A stretch of 64,000 nucleotides of DNA, taken from assembly GCA_903910555.1 (NCBI GenBank), contig CAIVZZ010000006.1, positions 1-64,000 of the forward strand. The letters are read 5' to 3'. The notes under the pieces were generated by a model. The model searched no databases, was not told where the DNA came from, and was given only the letters and a program-made list of their open reading frames with translations. This document shows, piece after piece, positions 41,095 through 44,817 of the stretch. Origin of the DNA: an uncultured Gemmatimonadota bacterium (GTDB taxonomy: Bacteria; Gemmatimonadota; Gemmatimonadetes; Gemmatimonadales; Gemmatimonadaceae). Every line of letters begins with the position of its first letter. Position 1 is the first letter of the stretch. The translations under genes were made by a program, and so were the position numbers.

Positions 41095-41168
41095 GGGCCA
41101 TTAGCTCAGGTGGTTAGAGCGCACGCCTGATAAGCGTGAGGTCCGAGGTTCAACTCCTCGATGGCCCA
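41095..41168 (+). tRNA. tRNA-Ile (anticodon GAT)
   Basis: Full cloverleaf: acceptor GGGCCAT/ATGGCCC with discriminator A, D-stem GCTC/GAGC, anticodon stem CACGC/GCGTG with loop CTGATAA (GAT at 41129-41131), T-stem CGAGG/CCTCG around TTCAACT. 74 nt, CCA not encoded. Its last 18 nt form the first part of a 54-bp repeat that continues downstream, and its 3' 44 nt recur at 44774. Confidence 0.98.
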
Positions 41169-41330
41169 TTGATCAGGAAGTCGTTGTCCTCGCGGAGCTC
41201 GGATCAACTCCTCGATGGCCCATTGATCAGGAAGTCGTTGTCCTCGCGGAGCTCGGATCAACTCCTCGATGGCCCATTGATCAGGAAGTCGTTGTCCTCG
41301 CGGAGCTCGGATCAACTCCTCGATGGCCCA
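41151..41330 (+). repeat. 54-bp tandem repeat carrying the tRNA-Ile 3' end
   Basis: Three identical 54-bp units (41151-41204, 41205-41258, 41259-41312) plus a partial unit (41313-41330). Each starts with the 18-nt tRNA 3' end (T-loop half, T-stem 3' strand, acceptor 3' strand, A), followed by a 36-nt linker. The first unit's 18 nt are the genuine tRNA end. All copies precede the terminator, so they should be in the tRNA precursor. Confidence 0.98.
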
Positions 41331-41349
41331 CTTGGGAGAGATAGGGACT

Positions 41350-41382
41350 GCCCGTTGGCGCTTCGGCGACCAACGGGCTTTT
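41350..41382 (+). terminator. Intrinsic terminator of the tRNA-Ile unit
   Basis: GCCCGTTGG (41350-41358) pairs with CCAACGGGC (41370-41378). The stem continues as CGC-TTCG-GCG with a UUCG tetraloop (41359-41368) and is followed by TTTT (41379-41382). Strong rho-independent form. It also insulates the PadR promoter downstream. Confidence 0.88.
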
Positions 41383-41487
41383 CGTTTGCGTTCGCTTCTA
41401 GCGGCGTGGTGTCCGCTATGGTGCCCGTTCATTGGTGACAATGAAACGCCTCAACTTGCGGCTGGAGTTGTCGACGTTCGGGTCCCC

Positions 41488-41539: not shown

Positions 41540-41872
41540 GTGACCGACAAGCCAATCGACCTGCCGCAGGGCACACTTGACTTGCTCATCCTTAAGGCCC
41601 TTTCGCTCGGACCGATGCACGGCTGGGCGGTATCCGAGCGGATCGCGCAGGTGTCGCGCGAGGAGCTGGCCATCCAGCAGGGCTCGCTCTATCCATCGCT
41701 GCATCGACTCGAGCGGCGCGGGCTGGTAAAGGCCAAGTGGGGCGTGACGGCGAACAACCGGCGCGCGAAGTACTACGAGCTTACCCGCAGCGGGCGCGCG
41801 CACCTACAAGACGAGGCGGATGCGTGGTCGCGGCTCGTTGCGGTGGTCGGGCTGATCATGAAGACGACCTGA
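41540..41872 (+). CDS. PadR-family transcriptional regulator
   Basis: 110 residues, GTG start with GGGGAG upstream. PadR winged helix from residue 8 to about 85 (LPQGTLDLLILKALSLGPMHGWAVSERI ... GSLYPSLHRLERRGLVKAKWG ... RRAKYYELTRSGRAHL), then a short dimerisation helix. Such short PadR proteins are regularly encoded directly before stand-alone ABC permeases and repress them. The gene ends 8 bp before the permease. Confidence 0.93.
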   Translation: MTDKPIDLPQGTLDLLILKALSLGPMHGWAVSERIAQVSREELAIQQGSLYPSLHRLERRGLVKAKWGVTANNRRAKYYELTRSGRAHLQDEADAWSRLVAVVGLIMKTT

Positions 41873-41880
41873 GGGCTGTC

Positions 41881-44604
41881 ATGTCGCGCGAACTGCTGAG
41901 CGATCTTCGGTACCGTCTCCGCGCGCTGTTCGGCGGCAGACAGATGGAGCGCGAACTTGACGATGAGCTTCAATTTCACCTGGATGCTCAGACCGATCGC
42001 CTCGTGCGCGAGGGCGTTACGCCAGCGGAGGCCGTCCGCCGGGCGCGCATCGCGATCGGCGGCGTCGAACACGTAAAGGAACTGAGCCGCGACGGGCGCG
42101 GCGTCCGCGTCGCGCTGGATGTCGCGCGCGACTTCGCCTTCGCGATGCGCGCGGCGCGACGGCGTCCGGGTTTCTCGCTGATCGTCGCGCTCTCGCTCGC
42201 GTTGGGAATCGGCTCAACGACGGCGGTATTCAGCCTCACATACGACGTGCTCCTCGCGCCGCTTCGCCTACCGCATCCCGAGCAGCTCGCGTCGCTTACG
42301 CGCATCGACAAGGACGAAGATGACAACTCGTTTACATGGGCTGAGTACGCCGCGTTGCGCGACACTCCTGGTGCCGGCATGTTCTCGGCAGTGCGCTCCG
42401 CCAGCGCGATTTCGATCGTCGCGGGCGAGCAGCGCGACCTGATCAACATTCACTTCGTCGACGGCTCTTACTTTCCACTGACCGGCGCGCGCGCTTCACA
42501 GGGGCGCCTTATCTCCGCGAATGACGACGCCTTCGGCGCACCGGTTGTGGTGCTATCCGCGTGGTTTGCTGACAAGCTCTTTCCCGGCGATTCGGAACGC
42601 ATCGGGAAGATCGTACTAATTCGCGGCGCGCCGTTCACGGTCATCGGTGTAACAGAGCGGCCGTTCCTGGCCCTCGAGTTCCCAGGCTGGTTCACGGCGG
42701 CAATTCCGCACGGCGCGGTATCGCTTCTCGGTGCGCTCGGTCCCGGGAGCGACAATCGCGGTGAACCTTTCGGGGTTGGCGACGACCGACTGAGTGCGCA
42801 CCGGCTGTTTCGCGTGGTCGCGCGCATTCCGGGGGACCTGCCGGCGGCGCGCGCGGCACTCGCGGCGGCCTTTCAGCGATGCTGCCGCTCCACGTCGACG
42901 GAGCGGCTCGTCGTTACGGAGATCAGCCGGGGCATTGGCGGTGGGAAGAACGACTTTCGAGTTCAGGCTCGGGGGATTCTCACGATCCTTCTTGGGGGAA
43001 TGGCTCTCGTGCTGCTCGTCGTGTGCGCCAACGTCGCCGGATTGCTGCTCGTGCGAGAGTCGGCGCGGAAGCGAGAGATCGCCGTGCGGCTCGCACTGGG
43101 CGCATCGCGCGCACGGATCATCCTGCAACTCGTGATGGAGAATGTGCCGCTCGCGATCGCAGGGGGTGTCGGCGGCGCGGCAGTCGCGATCTGGTATTCG
43201 GCAATCTTCATGCGGAACATACCGCCGGATTGGGCCACTCCCGCAGATCCGGTCCAGCTTTTCGGGATTCGCGTGGGGCCGGTGCTGGTCGGCTGCACCG
43301 CGGCGCTGACGCTGATATGCGGGATTGGGTTTTCGATTTATCCCGCGCTCCGCGCGACACGGCACGATCTTGCGCGGTCTCTTCGCCTCGACGCGCGGGC
43401 GTCCCGCACCCGCAAGCAGGGCGCGCTGGCGCGCGGAGTGGTCGCCGCGCAGGTGGCGGTCACGCTCGCGCTCGTGACCGCGGGCGGACTGTTCGCGGCC
43501 ACCATCGGAAACCTCGAGCGCCTCGATGGCGGCTTCAACTCAGGGAATCTGCTGCTCGCCGGCCTCGAGGCGCGCAGTTCCCGCTACGAGTCGACGGGCG
43601 TGGCGCCGTTGCTCGGCGCGGTCGTCGCGCGCGTCCGCAACGAGCCGGGCGTGCGCTTTGCCGCTGCCGCAACGAGCGTGCCAGTGTTCGGTGGTAACAA
43701 CTGGCGCGCCATCGCCGAGATTCCTGGCTTCGTTCCACCACCGGGAAAGCATGCCTCGGTGGCGCTTTCGGCGCTGACGCCCGGGTACTTCGACGCACTG
43801 GGCGTGAAGCTCGTCACTGGGCGCGATTTCGCGAATACTGACGATGCGGGATCGGAGCCCGTGGCGATCGTCAGCTCCGCCTTCGTGCGAAAATATCTGT
43901 CGCGCGTGACCCCGCTGGGGCAATCGGTTGCGGTTGCATCGCACGGCGATTCGTTGATCGCGGTGCGCATCGTCGGCGTCGCGCCCGACGTCGCGTCCGG
44001 TGACTTGCGCGCGCCTGCGGCGCCGCTCGTGTACGTGCCATTTTCACAGACTACGGGATCGTGGCACGGCGCCATGCTTGCAATCCGTACGGCCGGAAAC
44101 CCGAATGACGAAATCCGCTCGACGTTGCGGGCGATTCAGGCCTCGGCGCCGGGATTGAACGTGCGCAATGTGCGGGATATGCAGTCGCTGCGAGATCAGG
44201 CGACGACCGTCGAGCGTCTCGCCGCGCGTCTCGCGACGTTCGTGAGTGCCATGGCGCTGCTGCTTTCGGCGGTAGGGCTCTACGGCGTGGTCGCGTACAG
44301 CGTTTCACAACGAACAAGCGAGATTGGCATTCGCCTGGCGCTCGGTGCGCGCCGGGGGTCGGTGCTTTGGCTCGTCGCACGCGAGGCCATCGTCATCGTC
44401 GCCGCGGGCGTGGTGGTGGGGATTCCGCTGTCGTACGCAACGGGCGGCGCGCTTCGATCGCAACTGTTCGGGATTGGAGTGCACAACCCGGTGGCGCTCA
44501 CAGTGGCCGTTGCGTTGTTGGCGGGGGTGGGGTTGGCGGCAAGCGTAATTCCCGCGAGTCGCGCGACGCAGATTGATCCGAGGGCGGCGCTGAACGCAGA
44601 TTGA
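41881..44604 (+). CDS. ADOP-type ABC transporter permease (MacB/FtsX fold)
   Basis: 907 residues from ATG 41881; a longer open frame upstream overlaps padR in another frame. The ADOP N-terminus (LLSDLRYRLRALFGGRQMERELDDELQFHLD, about 4-35) precedes a TM, a MacB-type periplasmic domain, an FtsX core of three TMs (about 360-500), a second periplasmic domain, and a final FtsX core (about 785-900) ending SRATQIDPRAALNAD. No ATPase is encoded nearby, as usual for this class in Gemmatimonadota and Acidobacteriota. Substrate unknown; PadR control suggests a toxic small molecule or peptide. Confidence 0.9.
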   Translation: MSRELLSDLRYRLRALFGGRQMERELDDELQFHLDAQTDRLVREGVTPAEAVRRARIAIGGVEHVKELSRDGRGVRVALDVARDFAFAMRAARRRPGFSLIVALSLALGIGSTTAVFSLTYDVLLAPLRLPHPEQLASLTRIDKDEDDNSFTWAEYAALRDTPGAGMFSAVRSASAISIVAGEQRDLINIHFVDGSYFPLTGARASQGRLISANDDAFGAPVVVLSAWFADKLFPGDSERIGKIVLIRGAPFTVIGVTERPFLALEFPGWFTAAIPHGAVSLLGALGPGSDNRGEPFGVGDDRLSAHRLFRVVARIPGDLPAARAALAAAFQRCCRSTSTERLVVTEISRGIGGGKNDFRVQARGILTILLGGMALVLLVVCANVAGLLLVRESARKREIAVRLALGASRARIILQLVMENVPLAIAGGVGGAAVAIWYSAIFMRNIPPDWATPADPVQLFGIRVGPVLVGCTAALTLICGIGFSIYPALRATRHDLARSLRLDARASRTRKQGALARGVVAAQVAVTLALVTAGGLFAATIGNLERLDGGFNSGNLLLAGLEARSSRYESTGVAPLLGAVVARVRNEPGVRFAAAATSVPVFGGNNWRAIAEIPGFVPPPGKHASVALSALTPGYFDALGVKLVTGRDFANTDDAGSEPVAIVSSAFVRKYLSRVTPLGQSVAVASHGDSLIAVRIVGVAPDVASGDLRAPAAPLVYVPFSQTTGSWHGAMLAIRTAGNPNDEIRSTLRAIQASAPGLNVRNVRDMQSLRDQATTVERLAARLATFVSAMALLLSAVGLYGVVAYSVSQRTSEIGIRLALGARRGSVLWLVAREAIVIVAAGVVVGIPLSYATGGALRSQLFGIGVHNPVALTVAVALLAGVGLAASVIPASRATQIDPRAALNAD

Positions 44605-44773
44605 AGAACGGGACGCCTGGCGTGCCCTGCGCCGCGCAATGGTGTCCATCCGAGTGTGTGAAATGCACGTCGACTTGAACATTTGCGCACAATTCGAACG
44701 CGAAACTGAGCAGGATGTTCGAGACGCGCGGACAAAGTGAACGTTCGCGCACAATTCATGCGCAGTTCAGGGG
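44605..44773. other. Gap without gene, short imperfect direct repeat
   Basis: No coding potential seen. GAAC-N2-TT/C-N-GCGCACAATTC occurs twice (44677-44695 and 44739-44757) with two differences. This could be a trace of element ends. The gap runs up to the tRNA-Ile 3' fragment. Confidence 0.4.
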
Positions 44774-44817
44774 GCCTGATAAGCGTGAGGTCCGAGGTTC
44801 AACTCCTCGATGGCCCA
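44774..44817 (+). pseudogene. tRNA-Ile 3' half (anticodon loop to discriminator)
   Basis: 44 nt identical to 41125-41168 of the complete tRNA-Ile: the end of the anticodon stem, loop, variable region, T-arm and acceptor 3' strand. The 5' half is missing, so it cannot make a tRNA. Position relative to the full gene is that expected for an attR-type remnant. Confidence 0.95.

Follow-up and report, generated by a model that had tools for sequence, protein, structure and literature searches.

A 3.65-kb interval between a tRNA-Ile gene and its displaced 3′ half in a Gemmatimonadota genome, very probably a small integrase-less genomic island

Two described systems bear on the locus reported here. 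Islander (PMC4383910) describes the signature of a tRNA gene (tDNA) with a displaced fragment, and an anticodon-loop class (class A), and rejects intervals without an integrase. The ssrA islands of Dehalococcoides (PMC3146451) lie in tandem behind one RNA gene; 15 of them have no integration module and were proposed to be cis-mobilizable elements. The latter are the closest published parallel, and the present case is of the same kind, with another integrase type, a tRNA gene and another phylum. It lies in a 64,000-nt stretch of contig CAIVZZ010000006.1 from an uncultured Gemmatimonadota bacterium (hereafter, the window), in which a tRNA-Ile gene is followed by a 3.65-kb interval and a copy of its own 3′ half (Table 1). 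We conclude that this interval is very probably a small integrase-less tRNA genomic island, similar to a CIME, that arose from integration by a tRNA-Ile-specific tyrosine integrase.

Table 1. Features of the tRNA-Ile locus, in window coordinates
Feature	Position	Strand	Basis
tRNA-Ile(GAT)	41095..41168	+	Single call by ARAGORN; Rfam tRNA 70.7 bits
CTGATAA, anticodon loop, putative crossover region (attL side)	41127..41133	+	Near-constant; bases to left vary among att sites
54-bp tandem repeat, 3.4 copies, each unit ending in tRNA 3′ end	41150..41330	+	TRF, 100% matches
Terminator-like hairpin GCCCGTTGG/CCAACGGGC with T run	41350..41383	+	Sequence and fold
Left arm-like direct repeats GTGGTGTCCGCT ATGGTGCCCGTT, 12-bp pair	41406..41429	+	Motif scan, shuffles
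Inverted repeat TCCCCTTGCGCTTCTACAC / GTGTAGAAGCAACAGGGGA before padR	41483..41535	.	84% complementary
PadR-family regulator, acidobacterial type	41540..41872	+	PF03551 1.9e-20; TIGR03433 140.7 bits, cut-off 101.8
ADOP family duplicated permease	41881..44604	+	TIGR03434 638 bits, cut-off 622; MacB_PCD and FtsX
Right arm-like site TGGTGTCCATCC, 136 bp before core	44640..44651	+	Position matches other right ends
Two copies of TGAACRTTYGCGCACAATTC (44676-44695, 44738-44757)	44676..44757	+	Direct repeat, 90%
Conserved right end, box TGAGCAGGATGTTCG at 44707-44721	44698..44773	+	Alignment to G029 right ends
Displaced tRNA-Ile 3′ half (attR)	44774..44817	+	100% over 44 nt
One diverged 54-bp-type unit after attR	44818..44874	+	Repeat comparison
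Terminator-like hairpin GCGCCGCC/GGCGGCGC with TTT	44900..44932	+	Sequence

Positions 41125-41168 (tRNA nt 31-74) match 44774-44817 at all 44 nt (at 98% over 49 nt), and BLAST of the tRNA-Ile gene returned the second place as q31-74 at 100% with E 4e-13; such a match is far beyond chance. The second place has no 5′ half. A sequence-only reading of this DNA had reported the same recurrence, from the anticodon stem to the 3′ end, and ARAGORN, BLAST and repeat comparison all bear it out. Its coordinates and gene calls, with PadR and an ADOP permease between the tRNA-Ile gene and the half-copy, were likewise right, and its anatomy stands, although it lacked the 54-bp tandem repeat, the paired arm-like repeats at 41406-41429 and the conserved right end at 44640-44773. 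The gene at 41095-41168 is the only full tRNA-Ile copy found in the 3.2-Mb assembly at E<=0.001, and an Rfam scan of the region gave nothing besides the tRNA.

Half-copies of this kind are widespread. With the tRNA region as query against 60 relatives, we found many that start at about tRNA nt 30-33, often on the contig of the full tRNA; this start is common to relatives at the level of genus, family and order. When these were printed in register, CTGATAAGCGTGAGG was nearly constant and the DNA to its left differed, and we therefore place the crossover in the anticodon loop; the 5′ part of the present tRNA gene would then be that of the host, with the part from the anticodon loop onward supplied by the element. 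Across 288 genomes of the order, which like the other genomes compared are drafts and in many cases MAGs, the exact 17-mer CTGATAAGCGTGAGGTC occurred in 213, and in two or more copies in 57 by our count, some of which could reflect second tRNA genes; the reversed pattern, used as a control, was found once.

Gene order also breaks at this locus. Upstream of the tRNA-Ile gene, a corC-like gene, a CDF transporter, a pilT-like gene, typA and an acidic ORF are conserved through the genus; synteny ends at the tRNA, and every genome compared has different DNA downstream. The window genes on that side had no match in the downstream DNA of 15 relative loci, and the ADOP permease had none at E<=1e-150 in 60 relatives, so the cassette looks specific to its own genome. 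A GTDB pattern scan likewise found no ADOP relatives, leaving the cargo with no close relative as a source in either search. Some members of the genus have a tRNA-Ile gene without a half-copy on the stretch read. None of the relatives examined provides a precise empty site joining 41124 to the sequence after 44817, the downstream DNA differing throughout; for the downstream 228-aa gene, the best relative (48%, in G006) is on contig C16, not on that genome's tRNA-Ile contig. Just after the displaced half, at 45057-45621, lies a VapB/PIN toxin-antitoxin pair that is possibly part of an older island. Further downstream, a molybdenum-hydroxylase-like protein (53841-55991, recognised by eye) has genus relatives at only 36-39%, which suggests that the variable region reaches far past the cassette.

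Both ends of the interval resemble those of islands that carry an integrase. We defined an arm motif, at which an integrase would bind, as two copies of GTGGTGTCCRTT 12-13 bp apart, taken from the left ends of the islands in G029 and G041, and scanned 1.5 Mb of fetched DNA on both strands. The scan returned 15 pairs, 14 of them at recognised att ends, with left-end pairs 112-117 bp after the core and right-end pairs 129-150 bp before it; the fifteenth (G021 C15) precedes a degenerate core in L147. In the window, 279 bp separate the core from the left pair, equal to the usual 117 bp plus three 54-bp units, and such a pair was absent from all 20,000 shuffles of the region. In a scan across GTDB, the exact repeat pair occurred in 13 stretches, and those with a nearby tRNA-Ile core are all from Gemmatimonadota; a short contig binned as Solirubrobacteraceae has the same right arm and no core, and may be chimeric. 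Many other tRNA-Ile halves in relatives have no recognisable arm repeats, and not all of these halves are proven att sites. We take the motif-based counts as the stronger evidence because an unbiased direct-repeat score had a notable false-positive rate in random DNA.

At the right end, the window site lies where TGGTGTCC pairs sit in other right ends, with its second repeat copy degenerate. The conserved stretch before the displaced half, together with that half, is 85-88% identical to two right ends of G029, and the best alignment, to the right end of the integrase-bearing G029 island, has z=23. Its box is 69 bp before the core, and 10 right ends, from the window and five other genomes together, have the same box at a distance of 68-70 bp. 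The two copies of the 90% direct repeat are possible integrase or accessory sites, and the hairpin beyond attR probably belonged to the original tRNA unit. At the left end, a hairpin equivalent to that of the window is present in most left ends. The 54-bp units close with the final ~20 nt of the tRNA and repeat this 3′ end with a conserved GTCGTTG spacer, both in the array and after attR; single related units occur in G012, G029 and G210 (three genera in all). They resemble the tRNA-tail repeats of E. coli tyrT; a literature search on rtT-like repeats yielded nothing of use, and the fold of the region with the array was not significant (z = -1.56).

Integrase genes stand at the same site in relatives. 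In five genomes (G029, G041, G053, G159 and G031; two in tandem in G041), an integrase adjoins the tRNA-Ile gene or a half-copy and is directed towards it, with a further half-copy marking the far end of the island at 14-21 kb. The integrases belong to a single family, with 37-78% identity among the first five. Fourteen of 30 loci of the family across the order have a tRNA-Ile core close by, and others abut tRNA-Ser, -Pro or -Ala; users of tRNA-Pro and tRNA-Ala cluster in the integrase tree, in which many other forks are weak. The recurrent breakpoint, the integrase-bearing islands at the same site and the common end sequences together support integration by a tyrosine recombinase at the anticodon arm, as the sequence-only reading had proposed. 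Integrases with stops lie beside tRNA-Ile in G105, G056, G055, G135 and G113, and short remnants beside the core in G134, G133 and G021, indicating that decay is common in the tRNA-Ile integrase family. A prophage origin of the family was considered and rejected, with no relative found in IMG/VR and only weak partial matches (24-29% identity) in phage records. The autonomous islands (L040, L047, L048, L054) share a module of an integrase, an excisionase-like protein and a DNA-binding regulator, to which that of G029 adds SSB and a phrog_3964 protein. The left arm repeats of the G029 island (L040:2893-2917) run into its integrase gene at the 3′ end and encode the RTPRMDTT tail of the protein.

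Across Gemmatimonadota, many islands occupy the tRNA-Ile site, most of them with no integrase. In the fetched contigs, including the window, we delimited 35 segments between successive cores; by tblastn, a full-length integrase of the family is present in seven, a remnant in three and neither in the other 25. A profile made from diverse integrases contributed just one weak match, in G154, so that 24-25 of the 35 are integrase-less. Integrase-less segments are mostly 0.7-8 kb long and integrase-bearing ones mostly 14-21 kb. Arm repeats stand at both ends of three integrase-less segments, one of 1.24 kb in G021 and two of 2.3-2.9 kb in G019, and of a 1.96-kb segment in G021 with a short integrase remnant. 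In UBA4718, the gene of the 1.2-kb G021 cassette is found again next to the same arm repeat, at 93% identity. Small segments form tandem arrays, for example in G021 C16, G019 C248 and G042 C213. Two of these, G042:C213 (L052, L053) and G021:C16 (L043), comprise between five and seven tRNA-Ile copies in a row, halves or full, mostly spaced 0.7-8 kb apart, with no intact integrase.

Between its ends the cassette holds PadR and the ADOP permease only. PadR probably controls the permease, and the inverted repeat before padR is a possible PadR operator. The sequence-only reading had found no integrase in the interval, and we agree: no remnant is detectable (best E about 0.09), and left-end translations give at most a few codons of integrase overlapping the arm repeat. 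It had also called for a search of the genome for integrases using the same att core; that search, run without its own positive control, found no member of the tRNA-Ile-island family at E<=1. The genome's four tyrosine recombinases (two Xer proteins, one integron integrase and one unrelated protein) all lie outside the family, and we reject them as helpers. The integron integrase (G000 contig C7, L036:1141-2142) scores 445 bits against TIGR02249, over a cut-off of 265; an apparent HigBA-type pair follows it.

These data are best explained by a mechanism in which a tyrosine integrase of the Gemmatimonadota family, specific for tRNA-Ile(GAU), would have joined a circle bearing a tRNA 3′ half to the tRNA gene of the chromosome by recombination in the anticodon loop. 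A terminator and arm sites would have come in with the element along with a new 3′ half, and the old 3′ half would have been displaced 3.65 kb downstream. Since no integrase is present now, the cassette would be immobile unless a helper integrase re-enters the cell; its current mobility is unsupported, the genome having no cognate integrase. A segmental duplication of the tRNA 3′ half, without any integrase, had been listed by the sequence-only reading as an option. The 54-bp tandem repeat of the tRNA 3′ end means that local duplication does happen here; however, nothing but the tRNA half and one diverged 54-bp-type unit is repeated across the interval, the anticodon loop is the breakpoint in many genomes, and the specific end sequences are common to integrase-bearing islands. 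We consider this origin highly improbable and reject it.

Given integration, it is less clear how the cassette came to have no integrase. It is quite conceivable, though we hold it tentatively, that a larger integrase-bearing island lost its integrase and most of its genes in place and never moved as a 3.65-kb unit. Decay in place does occur in the family, as the remnants and stop-bearing integrases attest; yet the window cassette has no integrase remnant, its cargo leaves little room between the arm sites (about 110 bp on the left and 35 bp on the right), and the integrase-free 1.2-2.9 kb segments of G021 and G019 retain arm repeats at both ends. We see an about even chance that the cassette is a non-autonomous element whose intact ends are recognised by a helper integrase that moves it in trans, a cassette-like use of the tRNA site. 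Its compact layout of two preserved ends and one operon, the tandem arrays of small segments and the recurrence of the G021 gene in UBA4718 fit such movement, whereas the lack of a cognate integrase in its own genome, and the chance that some segments are degenerate, speak against it. Because there is no trace of an integrase, the cargo takes up nearly the whole element and both ends survive, we lean slightly towards movement in trans. It is unlikely that the tRNA-Ile site as a whole serves as an integron-like capture platform, at which compact integrase-free cassettes of 1-5 kb, each a single operon with intact ends, would be moved in trans by occasional helper islands and stacked in tandem behind one essential tRNA gene.

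Together, the integrase family, the tRNA-Ile site and the likely arm sites define a path by which genes have repeatedly been gained in a poorly studied phylum. Of the segments read at the tRNA-Ile site, most are integrase-less, and island finders that require an integrase would miss them. Like the tRNA and tmRNA islands of Islander, the present locus has a full tRNA gene on one side, a displaced cognate 3′ fragment in the same orientation on the other and an anticodon-loop crossover; its ends are common to integrase-bearing islands at the same tRNA, and its relatives bear a tyrosine integrase at the tRNA end. In contrast to putatively active Islander islands, it has no integrase gene inside the interval and would fail the Islander integrase filter, and we therefore file it as an integrase-less derivative rather than an active tRNA island. 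Integron gene cassettes offer a functional analogy only: they too are small cargo between repeated recombination sites with no integrase of their own, whereas the repeated sites here are tRNA-Ile halves flanked by arm-like repeats rather than attC, and the integrase family is of the phage or island type; the integron integrase of this genome is separate from the cassette system. As in a CIME, putative attL and attR sites are retained, with no integration or transfer genes between them. The resemblance to CIMEs and the Dehalococcoides ssrA islands extends to tandem arrays behind one RNA gene and to a mix of autonomous and integrase-less members. The Dehalococcoides islands, however, use a serine recombinase and the T-loop of ssrA, whereas those described here use a tyrosine integrase family and the anticodon loop of tRNA-Ile, and some of the tRNA-Ile members are only 1-3 kb long.
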